Positions 6,975 to 63,568 of a DNA stretch of 64,000 nt are shown in pieces; position 1 is the stretch's first letter, and every line of letters begins with the position of its first letter. Under the pieces are notes generated by a model. The model was not told the DNA's origin and ran no database searches. It saw only the letters and a list, made by a program, of their open reading frames with translations. The stretch is taken from positions 4,216,001 to 4,280,000 of the forward strand of contig OX637797.1 of assembly GCA_951802425.1 (NCBI GenBank). Direction: 5' to 3'. Source of the stretch: Clavaria fumosa. Its lineage: Eukaryota > Basidiomycota > Agaricomycetes > Agaricales > Clavariaceae. Position numbers and translations under genes: made by a program.

Positions 6975-7055
6975 TCAATGGGAGTTGAACTCAAGTGCTC
7001 ATGGAATTGGACTTAACCCATAACTGCTATGTTACCCATTACACTACAGTCCCCA
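6975..7055 (-). repeat. tRNA-derived (SINE-like) segment inside the CACTA element
   Basis: On the minus strand an A-box-like TAGTGTAATGGGTAAC (7046-7031) is followed by a B-box-like GAGTTCAACTCCC (6992-6980), at tRNA-like spacing. I could not fold a convincing complete cloverleaf, so this is a tRNA-derived relic rather than a tRNA gene. Confidence 0.45.
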
Positions 7056-7079
7056 TCTAGACAATAAGATTTTGTGGCT

Positions 7080-7935: not shown

Positions 7936-9973
7936 AATCACCCATCACCTGTTTTTTGGGTGAAAGTCTTAAATCATCTGTCCAGATGGTGATATCAACC
8001 TGCTATTGGGTCCATAGTGATCGCTTTCCATGCACATACAATGATCGCCGCAGAGCTCAACTACGACATTTACGACAAAGAGCTACTCATGATACACGAT
8101 GCCTTCAAGCAATGGAGAGCGTACCTCAAAGGCACGTGATACCAAATTCAGGTCTTTTCAGACCACAACAACCTACGATATTTCACCACCACGAAGCAAC
8201 TCAGCTGCCGACAAGCCTGCTGGGCAGAGTACCTTTCCAGTTTCGATTATATTATTCATTATCGAGCAGGAAAGTTAGGCGCAAAGCCAGATGCCCTCAC
8301 GTGACGACCCAACATCTACCCAAAGAAGTCCGACCAACCTGTGACTAATGCGCAAAATAACAAGAAAATAACAAGGTCGCAATACTGCCAGAACTACTTC
8401 GAGCAGCTGTCATCCTCAACGAAGAAGCCCTGATTTCACGAATTCGACATGCCCCTCACGACTCTTACTTCTCAAAGAAATCACAGGGTGCTTCACAAGG
8501 TCGTGACAAGGTGTTCTTGATCTTGCCCAACAGCTCACTACTACTTCGCAATGGTAAAATATATGTCCCCGACCATGACTCCCTCTGATTCGATATCCTA
8601 TGCTCCAACCATGACCACAAACTATGAGGACATCCAGGTATAAGAAAGACAACCCTAATAAACAGGTTGTTTTTCTGGCCAGGACTCTGAAAGGACATAA
8701 CCGTTTACATCTGTGGTTGTCACACCTGCACAAGGGCAAAACCTGTCCAACACAAACCCTATGGACTCCTCAAACCCTTGCCCATAGGCGAGTGACCTTG
8801 GTCTTCAATTTCGATGGACCATATTGAAGCCCTCCCCCTCTGCGCGACCTTTGACTTGATCCTCATCGTTGCCTGCCATCTTACGAAGCAAGTGATCTTC
8901 ATTTCCACCAACCCTACCAATACCGCGAAAGAATTAGCCCAGCATTTCGTCACCCACATCTTCTCGAAGCATGGGCTACCCGTGGACATAGTGTTGGATA
9001 GAGGAAGATTATTTGTTTCTAAGTTTTGGTCTTCGTTATGTCAAGCTTTGGATATTACTTCAAATCTCTCCACAGCTTATCATCCTGAGACTGATGGACA
9101 AACAGAATGAGTCAACCAAATACTGGAGCAATACATATAAATTTATATGAACTACCAGCAGGATGATTGGACCTACCAACTCCCACTCACTGAATTCGTA
9201 TACAACAACACCCCCCACAGTGTGACTGGTGTCTCCCCGTTCTTCGTGAACAAGGGATACCACCCAAGACTCATGATTTCCCTCAAAGGGATACCCGCGC
9301 ATGAAGCCCACATGGTCACGACTGATCTCAAGACACTCCACCAGCACTTATGAGATCAACTCAAGGTCGCAAACGAGGCCTACTTGTGCTTTGCGGACAG
9401 GAAGAGAGAGGTTACACCAGACTGGAAAGAAGGAACAAAGGTGTGGTTAGACTTGTGAAATGTGAAGATGAAGAGACCAATGAAGAAACTGGACTCGAAA
9501 TGAGCCGGACCTTTCCCCATACTCGCGAAAGTTTCGACTCACGCGTATTGCCTTCAGTTACCGAAATCAATGCAAAGAATTCACGATGTTTTCCATGTTT
9601 CGTTACTCAAGAAGGTCTACAACAACACCTTTCCTCAGCGATATCAGCAACCTCCACCCCCTATCAAAATCAACAGCGAACAACACTACGAAGTTGCTGA
9701 CATACTGGATTCTCGAAGGAGGGGTAGGAAAGTGCTTTACCTCGTACGTTGGGAAGGTTATGGACCTGAGGACAACACCTGGGAACCAATAGAATCACTT
9801 TCCGGCTTGAAGGAACTCCTCGAGGACTTCCATGTGACCTACCTGGAAAAACCCCACATGACTCACACAACTCAATAATTTTCCTTGCCTCTTTTTCGTT
9901 TTTCTTCACTTTCTCACTTTGGACTTCACAGCAATTTATATATGCAATAAAATTACAACAAGAAAAAGTCTAT

Positions 9974-18000: not shown

Positions 18001-18232
18001 AAAAAGGTTGATGGTAATGACAGTGAGACTGAGCCTTGAGTATATAGCATTTTTAGCTAGCTCTATGTCAAACCCCTGTACACACCCAGAAAACCGTTCT
18101 AACCGTGGTTATTAGCAACACCGTATATGTAACCCACGGGTAACCGCTACCCCCACCGTTTGTGGAGGGTTTTTGCCGGTGTGGGTAGGGGTTTGGCCAA
18201 TTCAACCCGGGGGTTACCCGTGCCATTCACTA
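15056..18232 (+). mobile_element. hAT transposon, copy 1 (3177 bp, full length)
   Basis: Flanked by the 8-bp TSD TTTTTCCT. The left end reads TAGTGTATAGCAGGGGTA; the right end, read inward, TAGTGAATGGCACGGGTA, so the terminal inverted repeats match at 15 of 18 positions. It carries one multi-exon transposase gene on the plus strand. A second copy with exactly the same length lies at 35296-38472 in reverse. The copies differ at a limited number of sites, mostly CpG transitions. Confidence 0.93.
15363..17994 (+). CDS. hAT transposase (copy 1), spliced; frame problem before the last block
   Basis: Exon 1 is 15363-16081 with a Cys/His-rich, BED-like N-terminal region (FFPCAARKCKGQ ... LKHHAICCFG). 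Intron 16082-16131 (50 nt, GTAAGG..TTCAG) joins in frame to exon 2, 16132-17176. That exon holds the hAT RNase-H-like core: GTDTWSSPNQRAF with the first Asp, FVGDNATSNDTQTT, RCFNHTLNLAAK, an acidic insert (16740-16850) and VVTRWNSTYDML. A second intron starts at 17177 (GTGTGT) and ends at 17222 or 17225; exon 3 continues in frame to YPNLYRMALNYLSIP. The final block ATSTAVECVFSHGRHLLPHTRNRL (17821-17990), the hAT C-terminal dimerisation region, lies in another frame. The only GT donor nearby (17777) does not give the right phase, and copy 2 has the same sequence. Either a non-canonical junction is used or both copies are defective. Confidence 0.85.
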
Positions 18233-30166: not shown

Positions 30167-30793
30167 TCACGATGGGTCGTGCGGGGTTGCAGTGGGTCGC
30201 GGTGTCCGTTCTGCGAGTATCCCATCCAGTCGCCTTTGCTGGGCATCAAGCCTCTCAGCCAGCAGCTTCCATTCTCCATATGTCTCTGGCATCGGGGAGA
30301 CACCATAGATTCTCTCCACCAGCCTCCTACTCAGGTTCAACTCCAGCCAATGGACTAGGATTCCTGAGTCCTTCTCTGCACTCAACTTTGCCCGTCGGAA
30401 CAGCGTCTCGAATTTCGCAAAGAACTCCGGTGCTGTCGTGGTACCCTGTTTCAGCCCTGCAATATCAGCAAGGGCAGTTGCACAGTCATTTGGGTCATCG
30501 AATGTGCACTTCATCTCCTCCACAAACTCTGCCCAGGTTCCGGCCTCGCCACTACCCAGGATCTCTTCTGCTTTCATATTCGCCCATTCAGCAGCGAATC
30601 CTTCTCCAGCAATTTTGCTCAGAGCAAAGAGGACCTTCACCAGGTCCACAGCATAGACAGTCGGGTTCACCATAAACAGGAGGCGTAGGGATTGGAGGAA
30701 CGTACGGAAGTTCCTTTTCTGCCCATCAAAGGGGGCAACAGCTAGGTCCAGCATTCTATAGCACTGTAAAATAAAATTCCGGGCCTTTGGCAC
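30167..30793 (-). CDS. gag: Family B gag (B1), open frame
   Basis: 208 codons from an ATG at 30793. The retrotransposon-gag-like domain is clear: LDLAVAPFDGQKRNF near the start, VKVLFALSKIAGEGFAAEW, FVEEMKCTFDDPNDCATALADI, APEFFAKFETLFRRAKL and LERLDAQQRR-type C-terminal helix (LLAERLDAQQRRLDGIL). It packages element RNA. The CCHC knuckle follows in another frame at about 30065. An acceptor-like TTTTATTTTACAG lies just before the LDLAV block, so the first residues (MPKARNFILQCYRM) may be intronic or displaced. In a related fragment at 39660 the same block follows a Pro-rich N-terminus. Confidence 0.78.
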   Translation of the reverse strand: MPKARNFILQCYRMLDLAVAPFDGQKRNFRTFLQSLRLLFMVNPTVYAVDLVKVLFALSKIAGEGFAAEWANMKAEEILGSGEAGTWAEFVEEMKCTFDDPNDCATALADIAGLKQGTTTAPEFFAKFETLFRRAKLSAEKDSGILVHWLELNLSRRLVERIYGVSPMPETYGEWKLLAERLDAQQRRLDGILAERTPRPTATPHDPS

Positions 30794-30944
30794 TCAGGAT
30801 TTCTTCAATCTCTTAACAGTCCTGTCCTCTCAGGCTGCTCTTCTAGTACTTATGTACCTATAGAACTCTTATTCTAACTCTTATTCTATGAAACTTTTGT
30901 TAATGTGGGGCCTGAATGGTGTCCCAGGTGGTCACTCCACAACT

Positions 30945-31035
30945 CCTAGTGAGTTGCCCGTGTGCCCTTCTGACAATGGTCACAGAGCAAGGGCCCTGTC
31001 CACTGGACCAGGAAACTACAAAAAAACTATGTAGA
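30945..31035 (-). repeat. tRNA-like segment in the family B leader (B1)
   Basis: On the minus strand TGGTCCAGTGGACAG fits a Pol III A-box well (TGGYNNAGTGG). A B-box candidate (GGGCAACTC) follows about 50 nt on but is poor. Present at the same place in the other family B copy (48470-48560), so it belongs to the family. Confidence 0.4.
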
Positions 31036-31245
31036 GGGCCTTTCCATGCCCTGTACTATACACAATTCACTGGTATGTAGCTGTAAAACAAGGTTCCAGG
31101 CCTTTGGCACTTGGTATCTCTTGGGGAGGGTCACAGTAGACTTCCTCCGGGTCTGATCACATGTATCTACACACAGTAAAAATTTCATGCGGTTCTGTTA
31201 CACACCGCAGGCAGGGTAAAGAGATAGAGGATGATAGGGGCTGAG

Positions 31246-31264
31246 CTGTGACAACGTGTCACAG
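31246..31264. promoter_or_regulatory. Perfect 8+3+8 palindrome in family B leader
   Basis: CTGTGACAACGTGTCACAG: arms CTGTGACA and TGTCACAG around a 3-nt centre. Conserved at 48221-48239 with the centre inverted (CGT). Possible dimeric protein site or RNA hairpin in the leader. Confidence 0.5.
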
Positions 31265-31323
31265 TTTGAAATTAAGGGTCCAGGCTAGCCGGGTTAGGAC
31301 ACAGGGCTAGGGTGGACAGGCAG

Positions 31324-31334
31324 ATCTTAGTATT
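31324..31334 (-). other. Self-priming primer-binding site, family B (B1)
   Basis: Minus-strand AATACTAAGAT one base after the 5' LTR. It pairs with ATCTTAGTATT of the family LTR (this copy reads ATCTGAGTATT, one mismatch). Confidence 0.65.
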
Positions 31335-31335
31335 A

Positions 31336-31626
31336 TATCAGACTGGGTCTCACACAACTTAAGTGTAAGGTCATGACGACAATACTCAGATAAGGGGAAA
31401 AGAGTACAAAACTGGAAACAATGCAGTATATATAGTGGGAACCCCGGCACTTGCCGACTTTCCCATGCTCGGACCCTCGGATCACGTGATGCGCCCAGGC
31501 CCAGGTCATGTGACCTTCCGATTACATAATCTTGGACACAGCCACAGGTCATGTGACCTTCCAACAACCCTCCCCAGTTTCTCCACAACTGCTCTTTTTT
31601 GGATGCTTACGTAAGCGATCCTAACA
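31336..31626 (-). repeat. Family B 5' LTR (B1)
   Basis: 291 bp, nearly identical to 24443-24733. Minus-strand TATATATA near 31434-31427 is the promoter; the predicted RNA start is near 31393. Confidence 0.9.
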
Positions 31627-35295: not shown

Positions 35296-38200
35296 TAGTG
35301 AATGGCATGGGTAACCCCCAGGTTGAATTGGCCAAACCCCTACCCGCACCGGCAAAAACCCTCCACAAATGGTGGGGGTAGCGGTTACCCATGGGTTACA
35401 TATACGGTGTTGCTAATAACCACAGTTAGAACGGTTTTCTGGGTGTGTACAGGGGTTTGACATAGAGCTAGCTAAAAATGCTATATACTCAAGGCTCAGT
35501 CTCACTGTCATTACCATCAGCCTTTTTCCGCTTTCATTCAATACCCTTGACAACATTGAGGAGATCCTTGACAGTGATCAAGTTGTTACGACACCAAGAA
35601 CCAAGACAAAGGTGGGCAGCAATGGACTCTCCAGTGAGCCTGTTGTGTGTATGAGGAAGGAGGTGCCGGCCATGAGAGAAGACACATTCAACTGCTGTTG
35701 AGGTGGCTAGAATCCGGTTAGAGACAGTACAATCAATTATGGATGAATCACTTATGAGGAATGCTGAGATAATTGAGAGCCATGCGATAGAGATTTGGAT
35801 AGACAAACCGGTTGTTACACCACCAGCGCAGAGGGTCACTAACAACCTCAACAGGGCCACGAAGATATTCATCTAGCTCACATGCATGGGAAGCTGTTGT
35901 CACTGAGAGGTCACCGAAGTCAATGAAGTCATCCTGCGTATCTGAGGTCGTGGGGTCTTGTGTGGCAGTACTCGTCACCTTGTCATACTGAGACATGTAT
36001 TCATCACGGACGAGCAATTTCGCTTGCTCAATCCAGTCTGGCTCCCAGTCATTTTGTTTGAAATACTCTAGCTTCATCCCAGGATGAAGTACCATGGCGA
36101 TGCGATACACCACAGAAGAGTCAGTAAGTGAATAGTAGCGGTTCATTTTGTTTCGAGCCAGTTTCAGGGCAGCAATGATAGCGGGGTGATAAGACTTATT
36201 TGTCCAAGGATTGAGGCCCTTGGTGATGCGGTCCATGGCAGGTATCACAGCTGCGATACTAGCTGTGTCCTGAGAAAAGTAGAGTGTTGCCTGTTTGAAT
36301 TGCTGCTTGGATGTCAGCCTGTCTTGAGCGATAATACTAGGTCATACACACCTTGAGAACGGCCACAAGATCCTCCACAATCTTCCAGTCATCATCATAT
36401 AACTCAAACCGACGCAACTTGTACTCCTTGTCAGCCATGATCACATCAATGGGCTTGCGGTACTGCAAGGCGAAGCTGAGCATGTCGTAGGTTGAATTCC
36501 AGCGTGTCACAACATCTCGTGGGATTCGCCTTGCTTTGACATTATGAACACAGCAGAGGCGCCGCCAAGCAGGCAGCGCAATGGTGGTAGAACGAATAAT
36601 GGCAAATGATAGAGAACGGAGCTTTGAAACAACAGCTCGGACAGAGTTGGTGTCAGCGATGAGCCAGTCTCTTCTCTCGCTCTCCATTTGCTCCAGCTCA
36701 TCGATGCCATCGTCAAAATCCTCGGTGTTGCTGCTGCTGTCGTCGTCATTGTCCTCTTCATCATCTGCATCAGAGAATTCGACAACTGCCTCATCTCCCC
36801 CACCATCATTTGGATCAGCAGCAAGGATGCTACTGTGTGTATCCAGTGACGGGTTGAATGGCTTGAGGAGGGCTTTGGCAGCGAGGTTAAGGGTATGATT
36901 GAAGCATCGCACACGTGCATCTTCTTCAAACGAGTTGTCGAGGGTGGATAGGACGGTTGTCTGGGTGTCATTGGATGTTGCATTGTCACCAACGAAGGAA
37001 AGGATCTTGTGTTGAATGCCGTAGTCAACCAGCATTGTGTGAAACGCCTTGGCAAGTGTTTGGCCTGTGTGTGACTCCGGGACTTCAACAAAATCCAGCA
37101 GAAAACAAAGCATGGACCCCTCATGCTCCAAGTGGACAGTCCAAGCAACGAAAGCCCGCTGATTTGGAGAGGACCAAGTATCAGTTCCAAAATGAAGACG
37201 GCCAGGGTGTTCCAGCAAGAGTTTGTGGATGCGCTCGTGGCATGCTCCAAATGCCGCCTTGACATCACGAGAGACCGTGTGAGGCGAGGGAATGGTCAAG
37301 TGGGGACGTCCAGCTGTAAGAATCTTGAGGAGCTCGCGGTCTTTGAGTATCTTAGCAGGCCAGTTGCTCTCAGTAACCCATTTGATGATATGCGCACTGA
37401 ATATCAGTCAGAGATGCTTTGGAAGACACAAGCAGCGAAGCCTTACCGAGCCTCAGGATTAGAGATGTTCCTATGTGACATGGCTACAGGCTCTTGCCCC
37501 CGGCGAGCAAACGTGTGAAAGATGGAGCTGTTATTGTCGTTTCGACCCCTGCCTTCCATAGCATTGCTAACAGCATCCACCCCAAAGCAGCAGATCGCAT
37601 GGTGCTTAAGATTTGCAGCTGAATGCCGATCGCCCTTGTCCTGAAAACGCCGGACACCGCCCATTTGACCCTTGCATTTGCGAGCAGCACACGGAAAGAA
37701 ATGATAGAGACATCCATTCTCATATTGAACAGTAACATCATCCTTGAAGAAAACGTAGATAGGTGAGCGCCATGTTCTTCTGGCAGCATCTGCTGAGAAA
37801 TGGATGTTAGGAGAGTCATAGCAAGCACGGTAAAACACACCAAGGGCCTTGTGAGGGTCGGTTTCGACTGACTTCGTGTCGTCCTCCTTGTCAGACATGA
37901 CGCTTATTGCATTTGCTTGACTATTGCCAGTGATAGACGATGTTGATTGAACTGAAATAGAGAGGTTCGAGCTTGAACGTGATAAAGATGTTGATGGTTG
38001 CACCATTGCCTTTGGCATCGCAGTAGCATGGGAGGGTGAGCAGTCTGTGTTTGTATAAGCGGATGAAGACGACGCCAGAGGGCTGAGGTTACACTCACTA
38101 GACAGTTCAACCCTTACATACTGCCTTAGCCACTGTGTAATATACTCCTCTTTGGACTCCGACATGATGAGCCACTGGGCATAAAGTTGGGTGAGTTAAA

Positions 38201-38472
38201 TTCATATTTCAAGTGTGGGGACAGACATGTGTTGAGTCCCAAAGGGACCAGACACCTGGGGACACAACGGGGTGAGCAAGGGAGTTGTGTGATGTCAACG
38301 ACTCAGAGGTGGCGAGGGAGTAGAAGGTGTGGGAAAAAAACCCTGTCAACCCGTTAACTGTGACACTTTTGTCATGGTGTGGGCGGTTCATCCAGAATAA
38401 GAAACCCTACCCGCACCGTGATAAACCCTATATATAACACCACGGGTTGTCACGTACCCCTGCTATACACTA
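35296..38472 (-). mobile_element. hAT transposon, copy 2 (3177 bp, full length)
   Basis: The 8-bp TSD TCCATCAC is at 35288-35295 and 38473-38480. Same length as copy 1, inverse orientation, 17 kb between the copies. The left end is TAGTGAATGGCATGGGTA and the right end, read inward, TAGTGTATAGCAGGGGTA. Protein differences from copy 1 number about a dozen, typically Arg to His/Cys/Trp/Gln, the mark of CpG transitions. Confidence 0.93.
35534..38165 (-). CDS. hAT transposase (copy 2), spliced
   Basis: Same gene structure as copy 1: exon 1 38165-37447, intron about 50 nt, exon 2 37396-36352, second intron, exon 3 to 35748, and the C-terminal dimerisation block at 35707-35534 in a shifted frame. 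Motifs are intact: FGTDTWSSPNQRAF, VGDNATSNDTQ, CFNHTLNLAAK, VVTRWNSTYDML, YPNLYRMALNYLSIP. Differences include ACRER to ACHER, RRDRL to RRDWL and CNNQF to CNNRF. The shared frame shift before the C-terminal block suggests that both derive from one ancestor with this feature. Confidence 0.85.
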
Positions 38473-47859: not shown

Positions 47860-48149
47860 TGTTAGGATCGCTTACATAAGCATCCAAAAAGAGCAGTTGT
47901 GGAGAAACTGGGGAGGGTTGTTGGAAGGTCACATGACCTGTGGCTGTGTCCAAGATTATGTAATCGGAAGGTCACATGACCTGGGCCTGGGCGCATCACG
48001 TGATCCGAGGGTCCAAGCATGGGAAAGTTGGCAAGTGCTGGGGTTCCCGCTATATATACTGCGTCATTTCCATTTTTGTACTCTTTTCCCCTTATCTTAG
48101 TATTGTTGTCATGACCTTATGCTTAAGTTTTGTGAGACCAAGTCTGATA
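47860..48149 (+). repeat. Family B 5' LTR of the B/C chimera
   Basis: TGTTAGGATCGC .. AGTCTGATA, 290 bp, the best preserved copy of the family B promoter. TATATATA at 48051-48058. Confidence 0.9.
48051..48104 (+). promoter_or_regulatory. Family B LTR promoter and predicted RNA start
   Basis: TATATATA at 48051-48058, then ATCTTAGTATT at 48094-48104, which is the exact complement of the 11-nt primer-binding site at 48151-48161. The 43-nt distance is a little longer than in family A. Confidence 0.62.
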
Positions 48150-48150
48150 T

Positions 48151-48161
48151 AATACTAAGAT
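48151..48161 (+). other. Self-priming primer-binding site, family B
   Basis: AATACTAAGAT one base after the LTR. Its 11 nt match the length used by Tf1 self-priming. Perfectly complementary to 48094-48104. Confidence 0.68.
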
Positions 48162-48220
48162 CTGCCTGTCCACCCTAGCCCCGTGTCCTAACCTGGCTTA
48201 CCTGGACCCTTAATTTCAAA

Positions 48221-48239
48221 CTGTGACACGTTGTCACAG
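48221..48239. promoter_or_regulatory. Palindrome in family B leader
   Basis: CTGTGACACGTTGTCACAG, 8-bp perfect arms around CGT; counterpart of 31246-31264. Confidence 0.5.
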
Positions 48240-48469
48240 CTCAGCCCCTATCATCCTCTTCTTCTTTACCCTGCCCGCGGTGTGTAACAGAACCATGTGA
48301 AATTTTTACTGTGTGTAGATACACGTGACCAGACCTGGAGGAAGTCTACTGTGACCCTCCCCAAGAGATACCAAGTGCCAAAGGCCTGGAACTTTGCTTC
48401 ACAGCTACATACCAGTGAATTGTGTAGTGTACAGGGCATGGAAAGGCCCTCTACTTAGTTTTTCTGTAG

Positions 48470-48560
48470 TTTCCTGGTCCAGTGGACAGGGCCCTTGCTC
48501 TGTGACCATTGTCAGAAGGGCACACGGGCAACTCACTAGGAGTTGTGGAGTGACCACCTG
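48470..48560 (+). repeat. tRNA-like segment in the family B leader
   Basis: A-box-like TGGTCCAGTGGACAG at 48475-48489; B-box weak (GGGCAACTC, 48526-48534). Same element position as 30945-31035. Confidence 0.4.
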
Positions 48561-48680
48561 GGACACCATTCAGGCCCCACGTTAACAAAAGTTTCATAGA
48601 ATAAGAGTTCTATAGGTACATAAGTACACAGAAGAGCAGCCTAAGAGGACAGGACTGTTAAGAGATCGAAGAAATCCTGA

Positions 48681-49316
48681 GTGCCGAAGGCCTGGAATTT
48701 TATTTTACAGTGCTATAGAATGCTGGACCTAGCTGTTGCCCCCTTTGATGGGCAGAAAAGGAACTTCTGTACATTCCTCCAATCCTTTCACCTCCTGTTT
48801 ATGGCGAACCTGACTGTCTATGCTGTGGACCTGGTGAAGGTCCTCTTTGCTCTGAGCAAAATTGCTGGAGAAGGATTCACTGCAGAATGGGCGAATATGA
48901 AAGCAGAAGAGATCCTGGGTAGTGGCAAGGCCAGAACCTGGGCAGAGTTTGTGGAGGAGATGAAGTGCACATTCAATGACCCGAATGACCGTGCGACTGC
49001 CCTTGCTGATATTGCAGGGCTGAAACAGGGTGCCATGACAGCACCAGAGTTCTTTGCAAAATTCGAGACACTGTTCCAACAGGCGAAGTTGAGTGCAGAG
49101 AAGGACTCAGGAATCCTAGTCTATTGGCTGGAGTTGAACCTGAGTAGGAGGCTGGTGGAGAGAATCTATGGTGTCTCCCCAATGCCAGAGACATATGGAG
49201 AATGGAAGCTGCTGGCTGAGAGGCTTGATGCCCAGCAAAGGCGACTGGATGGGATACTTGCAGAATGGACACCGCGACCTGCCACAACCGGGCCACAAAG
49301 CCAACGAGTGTTGTAA
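48681..49316 (+). CDS. gag: Family B gag of the chimera, C-terminus replaced
   Basis: Open for 211 codons and almost the same as B1 gag: LDLAVAPFDGQKRNFCTFL, KVLFALSKIAGEGFTAEW, FVEEMKCTFNDPNDRATALADI, FFAKFETLFQQAKLSAEKD, LLAERLDAQQRRLDGILAEW. Homology to B1 stops at 49280 (CACCGCGACC). The following bases belong to a family C gag: in a different frame they read QPGHKANECCKR, the second half of a CCHC knuckle. The B gag frame thus runs into family C sequence and stops at 49314. The protein lacks a nucleocapsid, and gag and pol are not joined in one frame, so the chimera is not a working unit. Confidence 0.82.
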   Translation: MPKAWNFILQCYRMLDLAVAPFDGQKRNFCTFLQSFHLLFMANLTVYAVDLVKVLFALSKIAGEGFTAEWANMKAEEILGSGKARTWAEFVEEMKCTFNDPNDRATALADIAGLKQGAMTAPEFFAKFETLFQQAKLSAEKDSGILVYWLELNLSRRLVERIYGVSPMPETYGEWKLLAERLDAQQRRLDGILAEWTPRPATTGPQSQRVL

Positions 49317-49392
49317 GCGGACCTCGCAGGCCAGTGCCAGCGCTGCACGAATCACCTCCGAGGGAGGTGACTCCATGCCAAAAAAAGATTGA
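49281..49392 (+). pseudogene. gag: Family C gag C-terminus (half zinc knuckle to stop)
   Basis: Frame starting GHKANECCKRTSQASASAAR and running to MPKKD and TGA (49390-49392). Only the second half of the CCHC motif remains; the first half lies beyond the B/C junction and is lost. It ends in the frameshift site. Confidence 0.75.
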
Positions 49393-49429
49393 GCAGCCCA
49401 GAGAGCATAGTACGACTCTCCGGCTGCTC
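49380..49429 (+). promoter_or_regulatory. -1 programmed frameshift signal between family C gag and pol
   Basis: Slippery heptamer A-AAA-AAA at 49380-49386 in the gag frame (CCA AAA AAA GAT TGA). A 4-nt spacer follows, then a stem-loop: GAGCAGCC (49391-49398) pairs perfectly with GGCTGCTC (49422-49429), and an inner GAGAG (49401-49405) pairs with CTCTC (49416-49420) around a 10-nt loop. Slipping back one base moves ribosomes from gag into the pol frame (AGA TTG AGC), which is open for 1273 codons. Confidence 0.82.
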
Positions 49430-52400
49430 CGACTCCGATCGTACGGAACCGATACTCGATACCCTTTCCTTTCATCGTTCTCTTTCCCTTCTTGCCTCCT
49501 CTCCTTCTATTTCGTCTCCGTTCAAAGCTATGATAGACTCCGGCGCTGAACTTTGTTTCATTGACGCCAAATTTGCTTCTCGCTTCCGTCTTCCGAAAAC
49601 TCCGGTGACCCCTCGGGAGGTCGTTTTTATTAACGGGACCACCTCCGTATGGGTTACCGAAGCGGTCTGGTTATCCATTCAGCTCTCCGCCATGGATCCG
49701 ACCGATGTCTTGTGTGTAGTTACCGATCTTGATCCCTCTAGTGATGTGATCTTGGGAATGAATTGGCTGTTCCAAAACAACCCGCTGGTTGACTGGATTA
49801 CTGGCCAGATAAAGCCCAGACCATCTAAGAAAGAGGAGAAAACTCCGAAATCTGATCCAGAGGGTGCACCAGCCAGCACTCTCTACTCTGTCCCTCTGTC
49901 CACCTCTGTCCCTCTGTCTGTCTCCGCTCCGTGTGCTCCGGTTCAAATGTCGTCTGCAGCGACTCCGAACCAGACCCGGACTCCGTCTCCATCCCTGCCT
50001 CTGTCTCTGTCTTTGACCCGGTCTCTGACCTTTCCGTCTACTCCGTCTCTCCAGGAGACACCCAAAATTTCTTTTGTGAATGCTGCCGCATTCGTCACGG
50101 CTTGTGGACTTCGCGGGTCCCAAGTCTTTGGCATGACGTTGTCGAGCGAGTCCGCGCGCGCGGCCTCCGCTTCGTTCAACGTCCCCGACACCACCCCCCA
50201 GGACCTCCTCTCCGTTCCGGAGGAGTACAAGGACTTCCCAGATGTCTTCAGTAAAAAGAAGGCAGATACCCTTGCTCCGCATCGACCATATGATTTAAAG
50301 ATCAACCTGCTGGATGGCCAATCCCCTCCGCCAGGTGCGGTCTACTCTCTGTCGCAGTCCGAACTCAGCGAACTCTGCGAGTTTTTGGACGAGCACCTCC
50401 GCATCGGATTTATCCGTCCAAGCCGTTCTCCGCACGGAGCACCTGTGCTCTTTGTCCGGAAGAAAAACGGAACGCTCCGATTATGCGTTGATTTCCGTGG
50501 TCTCAATAAATTGACCAAAAAAGACCGTTATCCGCTCCCGCTGACTAAAGATCTTCTCGACGTTCCAGGAAAAGCCCGAATCTATACAAAACTCGACCTC
50601 CGACACGCGTATCACCTGGTCCGTATCGCTGAGGGTGACGAATGGAAGACCGCATTCCGCACCCGATACGGATCCTTTGAATGGTGTGTGATGCCTTTCG
50701 GGCTCACAAACGCGCCCGCCACATTCCAGCACTTTATGAACGACATATTCTCTGACCTTCTCGACACGTTCATGGTCGTCTACCTCGACGACATCTTAAT
50801 TTACTCCGAGGATCCAAAACAACACGCTGAGCACGTCCGAGAGGTACTCCGAAGGCTCCGGGAGCACGGTCTCTTCCTGAACCCGGCTAAGTGTGAATTT
50901 CACGCTGAAACCGTGGAGTATCTCGGATTTGTTTTATCTCCGTCCGGACTTTCTATGGACACGGCTAAAGTGAAAACTATACAGGACTGGCCGACTCCGC
51001 GGAAGGTCAAAGATGTCCAGTCCTTCCTCGGGTTCGCCAATTTCTACCGCCGCTTCGTCCATGGATATTCCGAGATCGTCGCTCTGATGAACCGCTTGAC
51101 GCATAAAAACATCGAGTGGCAGTGGTCCGACGATTGCCAGTCCGCGTTTGACTATCTAAAAACCGCGTTCTCCACGGCTCCGATCCTCTCGCACTTCATA
51201 CCTGGAGCTCCGCTGATAGTCGAAACGGACGCCTCGGACTACGCTGTCACCGCGATACTTTCTACGGTCGCCTCCGACGGTGAAGTCCACCCTATCGCTT
51301 TTCATTCCCGCACCCTAGGCGTCTCCGAACTGAACTATGACACCCACGATAAGGAACTTCTCGCTATATTTGAGGCGTTTACCGCTTGGAGGCACTATCT
51401 CGAAGGTTCTGAAATTCCGGTCGACGTTGTTACCGACCACAAGAACCTAGAGTACTTCTCCACGGTCCGCCTGCTCACCCGGCGTCAAGCCAGGTGGTCG
51501 GAGTTCCTTTCCCAGTTCAATCTCGTGATCCGATTCCGCCCCGGGCGCCTCGGAATGAAACCTGATGCGTTGACTAGACGTTGGGACGTCTATCCCAAAG
51601 AGGGGGATAGCGACTATGCCCGCGTCAATCCGCAAAACCTCCAGCCGATGTTCTCCGGCGAACAATTGATATCGTCTCTCCGAGCTTCGTCGCTTTACGT
51701 ACCCGCACTCCGCGCGTCGTTTGTGATTGACGATCATCAACTCCGAGAGGACATCCGGTCTGGACTCTTGCTCGATCCTGTGATTGTCCCGATCCTAGAA
51801 GACCTCCACTCGAACTCCGCGGACCCTAAGTGGTCCATGGACGACGACGGACTTCTCCGCGAGCGCGGACGGATTTATGTACCGGACGTCAATGACCTCC
51901 GACTCCGCGTTTTACGCGCGAGACATGATCACCCACTCGCCGGACATTTCGGTCGGACCAAGACTACGGCCTTGGTCTTCAGGGATTATACCTGGCCGAA
52001 ACTCCGAGGATTCGTATCGGACTTTTGCAAGTCTTGCACGACTTGTGGTAGGGCGAAAGCCCCTTGGCATAAGCCATATGGAACGCTCAAGCAGCTACCC
52101 ATACCCGAGAAACCGTGGAATTCCATTTCGATGGATTTCATCGAGCAACTCCCTGAGAGCTCCGGTTTTACCACAATATTGGTGGTTGTTGATAGGTTTA
52201 CGAAGCAGGGAATCTTCATCCCGACGACCGACGAAGTGAACTCCGCGGAGTTGGCCTGTCTATTCGTATTCCACGTCTTCTCGAAACATGGAGTTCCGTC
52301 GCATGTCACCTCCGATCACGGCTCCGAGTTCGTTTCCCGTTTTTTTCACTCGTTGGGTAAAGTCCTGGACATGACTTTACACTTCACCTCCGGATATCAT

Positions 52401-53210
52401 CCGGAGGGCGACGGACAGACGGAGCGGACTAACCAGACGTTGGAACAATACCTCCGTTGTTACTGCAATTACCAGCAGGACAACTGGTCGCAGCTTCTAC
52501 CCCTCGCCGAGTTTGCCTACAACAATGCCCCGAGCGCCACCACTGGGGTTTCTCCGTTCTTCGCAAACAAGGGTTATCATCTGAATATCTCGGTATTTCC
52601 CGAACGCGAAGTAACTTCGGTCCGTGCCCGAGAGCTCGCTGTAGACTTGGATCAGCTGCACCAAGAACTCCGTAACCAAATCGCCGAAGCGCAGAGTCGC
52701 TATCAGGGTCCGGCGGACAAACGTTGGACTCCGGCACCGGAGTTTAAGGTCGGAAACCGAGTATACGTAAAGGCGAAGTTTTTCCGTACGACCAGACCCT
52801 CCAGAAAACTCTCCGACAAGTTCCTCGGACCTTTCGAGATCATCGGAGAGGCCGGTTCGCACTCCTTCGTACTCCGACTCCCCGAGGCCATGCGAGCCGT
52901 CCACCCCGTCTTCCACATTTCCATGCTGGAGCCAGTCACTCCGAATACAATTCCGAATCGTACCATCACCCCGCCTCCTCCGGTAGAGATCGATGGAGAC
53001 TTAGAGCATGAAATCTCCGAAGTGCTCGACTCCAAGATCGACAAACGCCGCACCTGCAAACTCCTATACCTGGTACGGTGGTCCGGATACGAAGGAACCG
53101 ATGAGGAAACATCCTGGCTTCCCGCTACGGAACTTGCCCACACCTCCGAGGCCGTTTCGGATTTCCACCAAGCTTATCCGAACAAACCCGGACCTCTCAA
53201 TACCCTCTAG
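49389..53210 (+). CDS. pol: Family C pol, intact: protease-RT-RNase H-integrase-chromodomain
   Basis: One uninterrupted frame of 1273 codons, entered by -1 frameshift rather than its own ATG (codon 1 is TTG; first ATG is residue 48). Protease around residues 48-54 (MIDSGAE). A Ser/Pro/Thr-rich linker (150-230). RT with catalytic YLDD at 465-468 (VYLDDILIYSE). RNase H with Asp 614 (ETDASDYAVTA), THDKELLAIFEAF and VVTDHKNLEYF. Integrase HHCC finger at about 846-886 (HDHPLAGHFG .. CTTCGR), core residues Asp 916 (SMDFIEQLP), Asp 976 (TSDHGSEF) and Glu 1012 (GQTERTNQ), a DD35E spacing. GPF module (KFLGPFEIIGEAG) and chromodomain near 1215-1268 (KLLYLVRWSGYEGTDEETSWLP). All catalytic residues are present. 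The sequence is CpG-rich, unlike every other element here. Confidence 0.95.
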   Translation: MSSPESIVRLSGCSDSDRTEPILDTLSFHRSLSLLASSPSISSPFKAMIDSGAELCFIDAKFASRFRLPKTPVTPREVVFINGTTSVWVTEAVWLSIQLSAMDPTDVLCVVTDLDPSSDVILGMNWLFQNNPLVDWITGQIKPRPSKKEEKTPKSDPEGAPASTLYSVPLSTSVPLSVSAPCAPVQMSSAATPNQTRTPSPSLPLSLSLTRSLTFPSTPSLQETPKISFVNAAAFVTACGLRGSQVFGMTLSSESARAASASFNVPDTTPQDLLSVPEEYKDFPDVFSKKKADTLAPHRPYDLKINLLDGQSPPPGAVYSLSQSELSELCEFLDEHLRIGFIRPSRSPHGAPVLFVRKKNGTLRLCVDFRGLNKLTKKDRYPLPLTKDLLDVPGKARIYTKLDLRHAYHLVRIAEGDEWKTAFRTRYGSFEWCVMPFGLTNAPATFQHFMNDIFSDLLDTFMVVYLDDILIYSEDPKQHAEHVREVLRRLREHGLFLNPAKCEFHAETVEYLGFVLSPSGLSMDTAKVKTIQDWPTPRKVKDVQSFLGFANFYRRFVHGYSEIVALMNRLTHKNIEWQWSDDCQSAFDYLKTAFSTAPILSHFIPGAPLIVETDASDYAVTAILSTVASDGEVHPIAFHSRTLGVSELNYDTHDKELLAIFEAFTAWRHYLEGSEIPVDVVTDHKNLEYFSTVRLLTRRQARWSEFLSQFNLVIRFRPGRLGMKPDALTRRWDVYPKEGDSDYARVNPQNLQPMFSGEQLISSLRASSLYVPALRASFVIDDHQLREDIRSGLLLDPVIVPILEDLHSNSADPKWSMDDDGLLRERGRIYVPDVNDLRLRVLRARHDHPLAGHFGRTKTTALVFRDYTWPKLRGFVSDFCKSCTTCGRAKAPWHKPYGTLKQLPIPEKPWNSISMDFIEQLPESSGFTTILVVVDRFTKQGIFIPTTDEVNSAELACLFVFHVFSKHGVPSHVTSDHGSEFVSRFFHSLGKVLDMTLHFTSGYHPEGDGQTERTNQTLEQYLRCYCNYQQDNWSQLLPLAEFAYNNAPSATTGVSPFFANKGYHLNISVFPEREVTSVRARELAVDLDQLHQELRNQIAEAQSRYQGPADKRWTPAPEFKVGNRVYVKAKFFRTTRPSRKLSDKFLGPFEIIGEAGSHSFVLRLPEAMRAVHPVFHISMLEPVTPNTIPNRTITPPPPVEIDGDLEHEISEVLDSKIDKRRTCKLLYLVRWSGYEGTDEETSWLPATELAHTSEAVSDFHQAYPNKPGPLNTL

Positions 53211-53837
53211 ACCTTTCTCCGTTCACTCCGATACCCCGAAATTTTTCTTATACTTCTATTTACGTACATTTTCCATTCAATCCAATTCCGTCTCTTTTCT
53301 CCGTTCACTCCGATACCCCGAAATCTCTCTTATACTTCTACTTACGTACATTTTCTGTTCTATACTACTCCATCTCTCGCTTCTCCGTCTTCTCTATAAA
53401 AAAAAATAAAAAAAAATAAAAAAATCCATATTTCTGTCTCCCCGTCTCTCCGTCTCTCCGTCTCTCTCTCTGTCTCGGCCTCCGAAAACTCCGAAAACTC
53501 TAAAAAACCTCCGTATTTCTGTCTCTCTGTCTCTCTGTCTCTCTGTCTCTCTCTCTGTTCCTGTCTCCGAAAACTCCGAAAACTCTAAAAAACCTCCTTT
53601 CTTCTTATTCCTTTTCTCCGTAAACTCCGAACCTTTGATTTTCTCTCCCAAGCCCGACTCCGAACCTCTCTTCGTCTTCTCCGTATTGTCTTACTTATTT
53701 TCCTTTCACTCCGCTTACTTTTCACTCGAGTTCAAAGATAAAAGAAACAAAAATTTTATAAAAAAAAAAAAAAAAAAAAAAAGAAAACAAAAAAGAAAAA
53801 AGAAACAATAAATAAGTATATATATTTTTTATTTTTT
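53211..53837. repeat. Pyrimidine-rich intergenic spacer between convergent pol and antisense gene
   Basis: Holds an 82-bp tandem duplication (CCGTTCACTCCGATACCCCG at 53219 and 53301), a second duplication around CCTCCGTATTTCTGTCTCTC (53430-53600), a run of 20 or more A (53758-53782) and an A/T-rich end. Probably serves as polyadenylation region for both genes. No ORF. Confidence 0.7.
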
Positions 53838-54824
53838 TTAGGCGGAGGGGGGCGAGCCAGGCGATGCCTGCAAAATTCCTTCGGGCTCCTTAAGCCCGGA
53901 CTCCGCTCCCACTTCTCCTGCCTCCGCCTCCGCCTCTTCCTCCGCCTCTTTCTCCGACCCCACCTCCTTCGCCTTTCCCTTCTCCTTCTCCTTCCCCGTC
54001 ACCTCCACCACCATGTCCTCCGCCTCCGCCCTCAGAACCTCCGCCTTCTCCTTCCTCACCTCCTCCGCTGCCTCCGCCTTCTCCGCCACCTCCATCCTTT
54101 TCCCCCACTTCTCCAAAATCCCGCGGAGAATCTTCCGATCCTCCGCCGCGGCCTTCCGCTCCGCTGCGGCCTCCGCCCTCCACTCCTCCATCGCAAACAC
54201 CCCCCTCAGGACCACGCTATGCGTGGCCTGCATCAAATTTTTAATCTCCTCCTCCATCCGCCAACCCCGCGGCACCCACATCTCCGCCCTATCCTCCTCC
54301 GACTCCGTGGACCGCTTGGTCCGCGTCCCCTTCGCCTTTTTCCGCTCAGGCCTCTCCGCCTCTCCTCCTCCGCACTTCTGCTTTGCCCCCGCACAGGCGT
54401 TGCAGGCCGTCCCCCGCCCCCCACTCGGCCACACACAGGCCACCCCCAACCTATGGCATCGCGCGCACTCCGCACGATCCGCCTCCGTCTCCAGTGTCGG
54501 AGACCGCTTCCTCCCCACCCCTTGCTCCCGCGCCACCTCCGCCGCCCTCCGCTTCGCTTCCACCGCCTTCGCCCTCTCCAGCTCCTCCCGCCGCACCCTA
54601 TCCGCTACCTCCCTCGCTTTCCGCTCCTCCTCCTCCCGCCTCCGTCGCTCCTCCTCCTCCCTCGCCCTTTTCTCCCTCAACGCGTTAATTTTCTTCGTGA
54701 GGGCCGCGATCTCGGGGTCCTCGTCCACCGCGCGAGGTTGCGTGGGGGTGGCGACGACGGGTCGTGGGCAAGGGCGGGAGGGGTGACTGGGTCCGGCTCC
54801 GGGCGTCGATTGCGTGTTAGACAT
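53838..54824 (-). CDS. Antisense accessory gene of family C: Zn2Cys6 cluster plus coiled coils, intact
   Basis: 328 codons from ATG 54824 (MSNTQSTPGAGPSHPS); the frame is open 29 codons further upstream (ATG 54911), but the later start fits the Ser/Pro opening better. Order: a Pro-rich N-terminus (1-32); a strongly charged coiled coil (about 36-100, RAREEEERRRREEEERKA); a basic KR patch; six cysteines at residues 120, 123, 130, 141, 144 and 151, exactly C-X2-C-X6-C-X10-C-X2-C-X6-C as in fungal Zn2Cys6 DNA-binding domains; a basic stretch (PERKKAKGTRTKRS); a conserved-looking WVPRGWRMEEEI; a second coiled coil (about 215-300); an acidic tail. It lies between pol and the 3' LTR on the opposite strand, so it needs its own promoter in or near the 3' LTR. 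Family A carries a cognate spliced gene. Not a known retroelement enzyme; likely nuclear, DNA-binding, oligomeric (inference). Confidence 0.82.
   Translation of the reverse strand: MSNTQSTPGAGPSHPSRPCPRPVVATPTQPRAVDEDPEIAALTKKINALREKRAREEEERRRREEEERKAREVADRVRREELERAKAVEAKRRAAEVAREQGVGRKRSPTLETEADRAECARCHRLGVACVWPSGGRGTACNACAGAKQKCGGGEAERPERKKAKGTRTKRSTESEEDRAEMWVPRGWRMEEEIKNLMQATHSVVLRGVFAMEEWRAEAAAERKAAAEDRKILRGILEKWGKRMEVAEKAEAAEEVRKEKAEVLRAEAEDMVVEVTGKEKEKGKAKEVGSEKEAEEEAEAEAGEVGAESGLKEPEGILQASPGSPPSA
54372..54467 (-). other. Zn2Cys6-type cysteine cluster in the family C antisense protein
   Basis: CARCHRLGVAC, ten residues, CNACAGAKQKC. Spacing agrees with the binuclear zinc cluster of Gal4-class regulators, which read CGG/CCG triplets. 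The usual Lys/Arg between the second and third Cys and a cis-Pro in the loop (VWPSGG) are present in part. Confidence 0.7.
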
Positions 54825-55053
54825 GATAAGTTTTTTGAAAGGATTTGCCCGTGTTAGGGGCGAGTGGTGGGAGTGATGAGTTAAGGAAGAGAAAAGCGGA
54901 GTGCGACGCACACAATCGTTTTAACCCCCAAAAAAAATTTCGGACTCCGATCGAAGCGCCGCGAAACTCCGGTGCTAACTTGATATGGGAGCCACGTGTT
55001 CACGCGGACTTTGGCCACAGGGTCTCAGGGGTTCGACCCTAAGAGGGGAATAC

Positions 55054-55770
55054 TGTTACGACCTCATCCGCTTGCATAAGCACTATCCCCGCCCCGGACT
55101 CCGAACTCCGTACCAACTCCGATCCGCTCCGCCATAACCCCGTACGCCCCACTCCGCATCTTCATCGGACCTTACTCCGCCGACCTCCGGACCATTCGGA
55201 CTTCGTTCTAGAACCTTCTCCCTCCATCCCCTCATTTTGTTCACTACTGAGAGGATACCCTTGACCCATAGGAGTCGCTTTTGTTGTTGTTTCTTTGTTC
55301 CAAGAAAATTGCACAGGCACAAGTGATGAAACTCTCCTAGTAATTTGATAAGTACATTGTTTCACATTACTCCTATACTCTGTCCTTGCAGTATAAGTTT
55401 CCACCTGTATCTCCCTGCTCCTCAGTTCGAATATTAACGTCTCTTGATCCTAAAAACATCTCTGAGCTTTCGTCCTCATCGTCCTCGACGTTCTCCACGT
55501 CATCTGATCAACTCCGACCAACTCCGACAGACTCCGATCAACTTCGGAGTTTTGACTTGTGTTCTGTTCCTCCCCTTAGGTATTGTTCTTGTTTGATAAA
55601 TAGGGACACGTATATACACGGTGGCACAACACATACGTTGAGGCCGCAGTCCCATAAGTCTCTCTTCCTTGTGTTTACTTCTCCATTTCTCCGATATCGG
55701 ACTCCGACCGGACTCCGATAAAATATCTCCGCTCCGCTCCGCTAACCCCTCCGCCGCTAACCTTGTTAGG
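55054..55770 (+). repeat. Family C 3' LTR (right end approximate)
   Basis: Starts TGTTACGACCTCATCC right after a purine tract (AAGAGGGGAATAC, 55041-55053). It shares CGCTT-CATAAGCA with the family B LTR start, so B and C LTRs are related. It holds 17 copies of CTCCG on the plus strand against one on the minus strand. The right end lies near GCTAACCTTGTTAGGACC, but no TSD could be matched because the 5' end of the element is not family C. Confidence 0.7.
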
Positions 55771-55779
55771 ACCTTGACA

Positions 55780-60752: not shown

Positions 60753-62137
60753 GAGGGGGATCCAAATAAGCAAATCCAGAGGGACCAGGGTTCAAAGTCC
60801 CAAGAGGACTGGGCCTGAGGGATGGAGTCACAAGGAGCCACCTCACATTTCATCAGTATTTCTTGTCCACATGGATGACATTGTTATGCCTTCCTGTCTC
60901 CACTACCAACTAAGGGCCTTCTTCTTCCATTCCATCTAGCATCCATTCAAGCCCTCATCCATCTGAGGTGCTCCCTGTTGCCCCTGTAGCATCATCAGAT
61001 AGTCACCCATGTACCAGCATATCATTGCCCTTGTATGATTGTCTGCTCTCCTGTCTCTTCCACATTCTCTTCATTCAACAATATTGTGTCTCCCCCATGT
61101 GTTGATAGCTGTGGGCCACACACTTTGATACACATGCTTTCAAGCTTTGACACAAACTCAACTCATAACTTAACTGACTTTGTGAGATGGGGCATCCAGG
61201 ACACCCACTTTGACATTCACATCTAGTCAACTTTGTGTGTCATGTGGGCATGGCAGTCCTGGACACCCACCTTGAGGTACACATCCAGTCAACTTACTTT
61301 GTACATTATGAGAGATGTGGGTGTCCTGGTCCTCCTGGCATGGCTTACCTGTATCTGTATGAGGTCCCAGCCTGCATCACATTGGATCTTGGTAGGTATG
61401 TAGGACCTAGGTTTGGCAATCTAAGAGTGAGTAGCACAGGTGGTGTAAGTAGGATGGAGGGTGGACAGTGTGAGTGGAGTGAGTGGGTGGCACAGGCAAG
61501 GTGAGTAAGGCAGGTGGCACAAGTGAGGAGGTGCAAGTGAGGCAAGCCATGTGGTGTAGCATCAATGAGGTGAGTGGGCTGCTCATGTTCATCAGTCATT
61601 GCTTATGTGTGGCATACAGTGCCTAGGCTATGTCCATGCTGCTCATAGCAACCCACCTCCAGACCCTGATCTTTTTTTCCTTCCCTGGGTTGTCCAGCAC
61701 AATGCAGTTCTGCCTCCTCCCCTTCCTTGCCATGTGCTATCCACTCTATGCTGCTTGTCTTGTTCTTCTGTCTAGGAGTCTTGTGATTAACATAGACCCA
61801 TGCTATTCACTTGTCTTATTTCATCTATGGCCTTATGGCCTCTGCACATGTAAGATTGGTTTGTTGAGACCAGAGATCCCTCAGTCACAAGTGCTTTAGA
61901 ACCCTGTTTATAGCAGTAGTCATGCAGTCATAGTGACAGTAGTGGGATAGATGTGGCTGGTTAGCTAAGTATACAAGGAAACCCCTTCACCCCAAGGGTT
62001 GACCCTTACAGTGCACCAATATTATTAATTGCCCTTACCATGCAATGGCAGTGAATGTCAAGATGCCTCCAACCCAATAATAGCCTTAGTGGCATCAGGG
62101 AATTGGGAAAGGGACATACACAAGTACCAAAAGCATA
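60753..62137 (+). repeat. Left arm of a 1385-bp inverted repeat
   Basis: Base i pairs with base 124321 minus i in the right arm (62184-63568) without any indel that I can find. The only mismatch noticed is CCAACCCAATAATAG (62070) against CCAACTCAATAATAG. Short frames in one arm are mirrored in the other. No transposase and no clear coding content. Confidence 0.93.
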
Positions 62138-62183
62138 GGCCACCAGGTCATATACAGGTCATATGCAGGTCATATGCAGGTCA
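62138..62183. repeat. 46-bp spacer of the inverted repeat with four 12-bp direct repeats
   Basis: CAGGTCATAT(A/G) occurs four times in a row, the last overlapping the arm start. Confidence 0.85.
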
Positions 62184-63568
62184 TATGCTTTTGGTACTTG
62201 TGTATGTCCCTTTCCCAATTCCCTGATGCCACTAAGGCTATTATTGAGTTGGAGGCATCTTGACATTCACTGCCATTGCATGGTAAGGGCAATTAATAAT
62301 ATTGGTGCACTGTAAGGGTCAACCCTTGGGGTGAAGGGGTTTCCTTGTATACTTAGCTAACCAGCCACATCTATCCCACTACTGTCACTATGACTGCATG
62401 ACTACTGCTATAAACAGGGTTCTAAAGCACTTGTGACTGAGGGATCTCTGGTCTCAACAAACCAATCTTACATGTGCAGAGGCCATAAGGCCATAGATGA
62501 AATAAGACAAGTGAATAGCATGGGTCTATGTTAATCACAAGACTCCTAGACAGAAGAACAAGACAAGCAGCATAGAGTGGATAGCACATGGCAAGGAAGG
62601 GGAGGAGGCAGAACTGCATTGTGCTGGACAACCCAGGGAAGGAAAAAAAGATCAGGGTCTGGAGGTGGGTTGCTATGAGCAGCATGGACATAGCCTAGGC
62701 ACTGTATGCCACACATAAGCAATGACTGATGAACATGAGCAGCCCACTCACCTCATTGATGCTACACCACATGGCTTGCCTCACTTGCACCTCCTCACTT
62801 GTGCCACCTGCCTTACTCACCTTGCCTGTGCCACCCACTCACTCCACTCACACTGTCCACCCTCCATCCTACTTACACCACCTGTGCTACTCACTCTTAG
62901 ATTGCCAAACCTAGGTCCTACATACCTACCAAGATCCAATGTGATGCAGGCTGGGACCTCATACAGATACAGGTAAGCCATGCCAGGAGGACCAGGACAC
63001 CCACATCTCTCATAATGTACAAAGTAAGTTGACTGGATGTGTACCTCAAGGTGGGTGTCCAGGACTGCCATGCCCACATGACACACAAAGTTGACTAGAT
63101 GTGAATGTCAAAGTGGGTGTCCTGGATGCCCCATCTCACAAAGTCAGTTAAGTTATGAGTTGAGTTTGTGTCAAAGCTTGAAAGCATGTGTATCAAAGTG
63201 TGTGGCCCACAGCTATCAACACATGGGGGAGACACAATATTGTTGAATGAAGAGAATGTGGAAGAGACAGGAGAGCAGACAATCATACAAGGGCAATGAT
63301 ATGCTGGTACATGGGTGACTATCTGATGATGCTACAGGGGCAACAGGGAGCACCTCAGATGGATGAGGGCTTGAATGGATGCTAGATGGAATGGAAGAAG
63401 AAGGCCCTTAGTTGGTAGTGGAGACAGGAAGGCATAACAATGTCATCCATGTGGACAAGAAATACTGATGAAATGTGAGGTGGCTCCTTGTGACTCCATC
63501 CCTCAGGCCCAGTCCTCTTGGGACTTTGAACCCTGGTCCCTCTGGATTTGCTTATTTGGATCCCCCTC
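62184..63568 (-). repeat. Right arm of the 1385-bp inverted repeat
   Basis: Reverse complement of 60753-62137. Its outer end (GGATCCCCCTC) is followed by AACAAGAAATACTGATGAAATGTG, of which 22 bases from CAAGAAATA also stand inside the arm at 63458-63480. Confidence 0.93.

Follow-up and report, generated by a model that had tools for sequence, protein, structure and literature searches.

An antisense gene for a probable zinc-cluster/coiled-coil protein is selectively maintained in a Gypsy retrotransposon family of Clavaria fumosa and swapped between element lineages

The window analysed here, a stretch of 64,000 nucleotides of Clavaria fumosa DNA, contains between pol and the 3' LTR of a Gypsy element (family C) an antisense open reading frame (aORF), which is a real, selectively maintained gene of that family and whose product, judged from its sequence, is probably a zinc-cluster/coiled-coil protein. 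The aORF has been swapped between element lineages as a cassette, and in a sister Gypsy family (family D) an antisense gene is constrained across a predicted 47-nt intron of the antisense strand. The features of the window that bear on the gene are the following.

47860..49279, plus strand: a different Gypsy family's LTR and gag, to which the truncated family C element is joined
49389..53210, plus strand: pol ORF of family C, with protease, RT, RNase H, integrase and chromodomain (ORF listing, Pfam)
53211..53837, plus strand: AT-rich and CTCCG-rich spacer from the pol stop to the aORF stop (convergent ends)
53838..54824, minus strand: aORF, 328 aa (ORF listing, dN/dS, copy alignment, single-sequence model)
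54372..54467, minus strand: Cys6 cluster C-X2-C-X6-C-X10-C-X2-C-X6-C, residues 120-151 (alignment; Pfam Zn_clus below cut-off)
54825..55053, no strand assigned: leader from the aORF start to the 3' LTR, with a purine-rich tract directly before the LTR
55054..55779, plus strand: 3' LTR (TG...CA), a candidate source of an antisense promoter
12769-11641 and 34056-33601, minus strand: decayed antisense Cys6/coiled-coil frames downstream of the pol of a third family

The aORF runs on the minus strand from an ATG at 54824 to a stop that ends at 53838 and has no internal stop; the same frame is listed as 357 aa if begun at an upstream GTG. The original prediction, made from the letters of the window, had described an uninterrupted frame of 328 codons with this cysteine spacing, which is exactly what was found, and its placement on the opposite strand in the interval between pol (49389-53210) and the 3' LTR (55054-55779) was borne out. 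The protein begins with a Pro-rich N-terminus, followed by a helix (37-102), the Cys6 cluster (120-151), a basic linker, a second helix (186-288) and a conserved C-terminus. The two coiled coils said to flank the cluster correspond to the two long helices of the single-sequence model, at residues 37-102 and 186-288, where the confidence (means of 10-residue blocks) is 87-96 over residues 41-100 and 79-95 over residues 191-280. The domain order of family C pol (RT, RNase H, integrase, chromodomain) is that of chromodomain Ty3/Gypsy, chromovirus-like elements. In the window and in a second copy, L053, the aORF lies between pol and the 3' LTR, antisense to gag-pol, and it is retained in most copies with a conservation like that of pol; both are marks of the aORF-3R class.

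The description of the gene as lying inside a Gypsy retrotransposon holds for family C, but not for the element of the window, which is defective. Similarity between the window and L053 begins only at 49291, and the family C 5' LTR and about nine tenths of gag (measured on L053) are therefore absent from the window's element. L053 is a natural copy with both LTRs, 96.4% identical to each other, in the order LTR, gag (391 aa), pol (interrupted), antisense frame of 328 aa, LTR, and with a possible 5-bp target duplication (CAGTC/CAGCC, one mismatch). The foreign segment 47860-49279 is 94% identical to 30195-31626 on the other strand. At a sharp junction (49279-49291) the LTR and gag of the one Gypsy family abut the gag end and pol of the other, by a deletion or by recombination between two elements.

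The aORF gives at least 131 match rows in the same genome (122 of 254 candidates were scored, and some copies are split over several rows). Near-full-length rows at 91-100% identity number 25, the window's own counted, and further groups lie at approximately 80%, 50-62% and 48-49% identity. The frame is stop-free in 45 of the 67 near-full-length rows that were typed, the window's copy and segmental duplicates included: 19 of 25 with at least 90% identity, 8 of 11 at 75-90%, and 18 of 31 at 50-75%. Among the matches listed, an equally long RT stretch is stop-free in 35 of the 58 rows with at least 90% identity, in 1 of 36 at 82-90%, in none of 3 at 75-82%, and in 16 of 24 at 70-75%. When typed aORF rows were paired with listed RT matches (122 of 1968 candidates), 44 of 80 had an RT on the opposite strand and on the expected side, 4 had one on the same strand, and 32 were unpaired. 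These stop and pairing counts took 80 of the 131 aORF rows, short pieces being left out, 121 of the 122 RT rows and 30 of the 61 family D rows.

Substitution rates were compared among 31 of 54 loci; L051 and L052 (duplicates), nine loci with internal stops and twelve stop-free loci, which lack the start Met at the expected place or have at most 250 codons, were set aside. The median dN/dS in these 31 stop-free copies is 0.37-0.44 where the paired proteins are 45-98% identical, and 0.55-0.59 in the identity bins at either extreme. Since deamination bias depresses dN/dS with or without selection, the substitutions of each pair were shuffled over sites of equal base and CpG state, 200 times per pair. 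For 16 pairs, hand-picked from 465, non-independent and made of copies chosen as stop-free, the aORF dN/dS is 0.19-0.71 against control means of 0.63-0.98, and it falls under all 200 controls in 12 of them. The four exceptions have ratios of 0.50, 0.50, 0.60 and 0.71, and in the latter two pairs another frame is slightly lower than the aORF. The frame is open even in copies at 55-60% protein identity, while shuffled copies gain 0.5-6.9 stops on average (the copies themselves having been chosen as stop-free), so the frame is open beyond chance. The frame is thus carried by other copies and its dN/dS is not near 1, so that neither refutation put forward with the original prediction succeeds: the element family has in the aORF a protein-coding gene of its own, under purifying selection.

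The six cysteines of the aORF (residues 120, 123, 130, 141, 144 and 151) are conserved in 184 of the 186 cells of the 31-copy alignment, with all six present in 29 copies. Zn2Cys6 domains follow the consensus C-X2-C-X6-C-X5..12-C-X2-C-X6..8-C, in which basic residues between cysteines 2 and 3 form the DNA-contact helix. The spacing of the aORF falls within this range, and the neighbouring coiled coil is a further likeness to the Gal4-class domain (PF00172). This much of the proposed Gal4-class assignment stands; the profile does not carry it further, as Pfam Zn_clus scores the window protein at 15 bits against a cut-off of 21, which the 16 ordinary Zn_clus matches of the genome all exceed. A weak Zn_clus match (E up to 1) was returned for 21 of 24 copies, with a best E of 0.0064. 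The alignment is out of register: residues 139-158, which hold the protein's second group of three cysteines, are matched to positions 1-17, in the first half of the profile. The halves in family C are CARCHRLGVAC and CNACAGAKQKC, and the basic residues expected between cysteines 2 and 3 are missing from the first. The order appears reversed relative to PF00172, with the K-rich half second, as if the two pseudo-symmetric halves had swapped places, and long helices stand on both sides of the cluster. The halves searched separately against Pfam gave no match (the frame of the second piece was unchecked in one search), and a search of solved structures by sequence gave six matches, all with E of 0.35 or more and with unrelated names. 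The structure prediction recovered the long helices on both sides, with the cluster itself at low confidence (block means of 42-67 over residues 111-160 in the full single-sequence model); a 95-residue single-sequence model of the cluster reached block means up to 82 with no recognisable fold.

The aORF proteins fall into two types, type I (MSNTQ..., with the related L026-L029) and type II (MSHNP...). Identity between the types is 71-77% in the cluster block, 27-47% in the next three blocks (residues 161-220), 67-73% over residues 221-280 and 78-89% in the C-terminal blocks. When the window (type I) is compared with L053 (type II), pol is 90-98% identical, the spacer 85-90%, two LTR blocks 89-94% and the whole LTR 90%, whereas the aORF and leader are 62-78% identical, the leader (54825..55053) having diverged along with the aORF between the types. 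For this pair, pol has a dS of 0.128 (dN/dS 0.26) and the aORF one of 0.682 (dN/dS 0.39). Within type I, dS is 0.048 for the pol part (L052) and 0.072 for the aORF (L003, the same locus), with dN/dS of 0.61 for pol and 0.32 for the aORF at this locus. A faster mutation of the aORF was considered as the cause of the divergence between types and rejected, as within type I the aORF diverges approximately like pol. At type I loci other than L026-L029, pol and aORF are each approximately 93-98% identical at the DNA level; the figures for L026-L029 are 89% for pol and 85% for the aORF, and those for the type II loci L032 and L053 are 95-96% for pol and 72-73% for the aORF. Trees were built from 24 loci (18 of type I, 6 of type II) for the aORF and for pol, and from 23 loci for the LTR. 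The aORF tree separates the types with support 1.0, whereas the pol and LTR trees are without such a split, and in the pol tree the type II loci L032, L049 and L053 cluster with young type I. Since two old types occupy near-identical pol and LTR backbones and the trees are discordant, the aORF is an exchanged cassette. The swapping suggests that the elements carry their own exchangeable regulator, and recombination during reverse transcription would be its natural explanation.

An RT lineage at 71-74% identity holds, among the matches listed, elements with long open pol frames. In L057 (family D, pol 70%), an antisense coiled-coil exon lies beyond pol, followed downstream by a cysteine exon in another frame; this copy has a 16-nt deletion. 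A survey of the best 14 of 61 match rows of family D found a 47-nt GT...AG stretch in all 14 loci, typically between ERCSQKKL and ECKWTGPARTRSCDQCREKRVGC. It begins with GTAAGT (9 loci) or GTAGGT (5), has CCAG at its other end, and contains CTAA (CCAA in one locus). Removing the stretch gives the spacing C-X2-C-X6-C-X10-C-X2-C-X6-C once more; 8 of the 14 loci have the first cysteine, while five have Arg and one has Trp in its place, as read by eye. Eight loci were compared with L060, whose five closest loci were left out. In these eight comparisons the exons together have dN/dS of 0.17-0.29, at or below the lowest of 200 controls, and one locus has one stop. The second exon has dN/dS of 0.07-0.35 and no stops in the spliced frame, against 0.86-4.16 in the other two frames, and lies below all 200 of its own controls in five of the eight. 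The unspliced frame is open for 274 codons in L060, but past the 47-nt stretch it follows one of the two frames free of constraint, so it is the constraint and not the stops that marks the intron. Between distant loci, identity is 74-79% in the intron and 89-90% in the exons. Of the 30 typed rows, 20 have a listed RT on the other strand, none has one on the same strand, and 10 are unpaired. An intron of the antisense strand cannot work in gag-pol RNA, and the predicted intron thus argues for antisense transcription in the history of family D.

A third, decayed Gypsy family has two copies in the window, with pol at 5309-9869 and at 22351-24443/31627-32460; behind the pol of each lies a coiled-coil frame on the antisense strand, likewise decayed (12186-11641 and 34056-33601). 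The two frames have a common 71-nt stretch at 82% identity, and a cluster C-X2-C-X6-C-X7-C-X2-C-X6-C is found at 12564-12367, near the first of them. A 181-aa part of the antisense frame gives 132 match rows in the genome. Read from these remnants, the third family appears to show the same plan as family C.

Descriptions of antisense accessory genes in LTR retrotransposons go back to the late 1990s, and PMC7264820 still calls their function unknown; in this source Vicient and Casacuberta (2020) review such genes, with Boty of Botrytis as a fungal case, and the product of gene23 of maize Grande is given as nuclear and its gene as antisense-transcribed. For Retand, PMC11963269 (2025) gives antisense TRP28 proteins in 97% of clusters, with predicted DNA binding. 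As described in these two papers, the plant genes (Grande gene23, RIRE2, Retand ORF4/TRP28) resemble the aORF in place, strand and presence in most copies, and are likewise suspected to be nuclear or DNA-binding regulators. They are set apart by their products, described as TRP28 or as without a known domain whereas the aORF has Cys6 and coiled coils, and by their hosts, the elements here being fungal and chromodomain-bearing. In Botrytis cinerea, according to papers that cite Zhao et al. (2011) (PMC8365987, PMC4227169, PMC7264820), brtn is an additional antisense gene of Boty-like retrotransposons, which are, as here, fungal LTR elements with gag-pol and a chromodomain. The window protein and its copies gave no bZIP among Pfam families at E up to 1. 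HBZ of HTLV-1 is an antisense bZIP protein from the 3' LTR that forms a coiled-coil dimer and acts on its provirus. It is also nuclear (PMC11963269), and the logic of an antisense gene beside the 3' LTR with a nuclear, coiled-coil dimer as product would be the same; no homology is claimed, the aORF being Cys6 and not bZIP. The place and orientation of the gene are thus already known. The zinc-cluster type and the exchange look new: in the open-licence literature we found no report of a Cys6 antisense gene in Gypsy elements, of an exchange of such cassettes, or of an antisense intron. The fungal set combines a candidate nucleic-acid-binding domain, measurable constraint, a gene with an antisense-strand intron and a natural exchange of two types, and whether retrotransposons encode type-specific regulators is therefore testable by simple binding and reporter assays.

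The word CTCCG is unevenly distributed over the strands of the element (plus/minus counts: LTR, 17/1; spacer, 17/0; leader, 2/1; aORF, 25/3; pol, 56/8). Its density is 13-28 per kb in the element and 0.9 per kb elsewhere in the window, and it falls at the element borders both in the window (49291-55779) and in L053, as followed in steps of 500-1000 bases. The 56 occurrences in pol exceed all 500 synonymous shuffles (mean 18.6, maximum 30); CTCCG is the most over-represented 5-mer of family C pol and is enriched in all three codon phases. Family D is also enriched on its own sense strand (L057). Triple clusters of CTCCG are found 1872 times across the genome and those of the reversed word 290 times; the CTCCG clusters also occur at no fewer than two places (L055, L056) that are not family C as a whole. 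The word fades in CpG-decayed copies, e.g., L054. The idea that CGGAG arrays serve a CGG-binding zinc cluster as plain operators in the LTR was not adopted: the word is enriched along the whole element with a bias to one strand, and it is not specially retained in individual copies.

For the function of the aORF we propose, at what we consider an even chance, an antisense accessory gene whose dimeric nuclear protein binds DNA of the element and tunes its transcription or copy number. Antisense transcription would start in or just before the 3' LTR; the coiled coils would dimerise the product, which may reside in the nucleus, and the zinc-cluster-like Cys6 domain would, with putative zinc binding, contact nucleic acid, presumably DNA, together with the basic linker. 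By analogy to HBZ, the product may bind the LTR or leader and so tune the element's own transcription or copy number. Because two old types are exchanged between otherwise near-identical elements, the aORF may set specificity, i.e., which elements respond, in a manner that recalls an exchangeable immunity cassette. That the strand-biased CTCCG/CGGAG enrichment reaches into pol is more than a simple LTR operator would account for.

The main rival to a DNA-acting nuclear protein is action on element RNA or cDNA, as a nucleic-acid chaperone, a nuclear import/export factor or a packaging factor in the replication cycle, which we place on the unlikely side of possible. A basic Cys cluster with coiled coils suits RNA or cDNA as well as DNA, sense-strand CTCCG in the LTR, the spacer and all codon phases of pol resembles a signal at the RNA level more than an operator, and PMC7264820 suggests for such genes the kind of role that accessory proteins have in retroviruses. 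Nothing, however, ties CTCCG to the aORF protein. The LTR of family B is without CTCCG, and since its chromodomain frame ends 11 nt before the LTR, there is no space for an antisense gene; this is one family only, and CpG decay erases the word in old copies. An unlikely elaboration of the exchangeable regulator, drawn by analogy, is a self-recognition locus of the immunity type, in which two or more old allelic types of a zinc-cluster regulator recombine among the same gag-pol and LTR backgrounds and each would govern elements of its own type. Incoming or sister copies would then be repressed or complemented by type, as with the regulator cassettes of heteroimmune phages.

We consider it quite unlikely that the antisense transcript itself matters, through convergent transcription, dsRNA or control of silencing, with the protein secondary. 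The convergent genes end 627 nt apart, so sense and antisense transcripts could overlap, and PMC7264820 raises this for plant elements; the coding constraint in most pairs of families C and D, the retained cysteines, and the constraint of the family D frame beyond the intron only as spliced speak against it. That the aORF is a captured host Zn2Cys6 gene, carried as cargo with no role in the element, would be in keeping with the presence of ordinary Zn_clus genes in the genome, but it is very improbable given that old subfamilies and a second family alike have the gene and keep it under constraint, and that none of the 16 host Zn_clus places coincides with an aORF row, as compared by eye. A chance frame opposite a GC-rich stretch, the real gene being the 257-aa sense frame (54013-54786, plus strand) or none, is refuted and left with a probability next to nil: this frame is long in the window and its third positions are also those of the aORF, but the 15 of 31 copies that have no stop in it are all close type I relatives, stops break it in the other 16, including 10 of 10 type II copies and L026-L029, and its dN/dS (0.25-1.01) is above that of the aORF in all 16 pairs.

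Several other repeats were observed. Window positions 60753-63568 form an inverted repeat with arms of 1385 nt, 100% complementary and 46 nt apart, which is a hairpin element or an assembly artefact, and positions 15056-18232 and 35296-38472 form a 3177-nt inverted repeat, 99% complementary, with the arms 17 kb apart. A nearly identical aORF with one stop, 48-49% related, recurs at approximately 12 places, several of them within 60 kb of a contig end (in G000, for example, C10:3286015, C7:52132, C13:1869647 and C14:40879), which suggests the duplication of a subtelomeric block; L054, one of these places, is poor in CTCCG. Pairs of aORFs of the approximately 80% type lie approximately 60 kb apart on four chromosomes of G000 (C7:223486/283710, C3:221247/159164, C2:4706837/4644406 and C4:4037919/4100448) and are a large segmental duplication.
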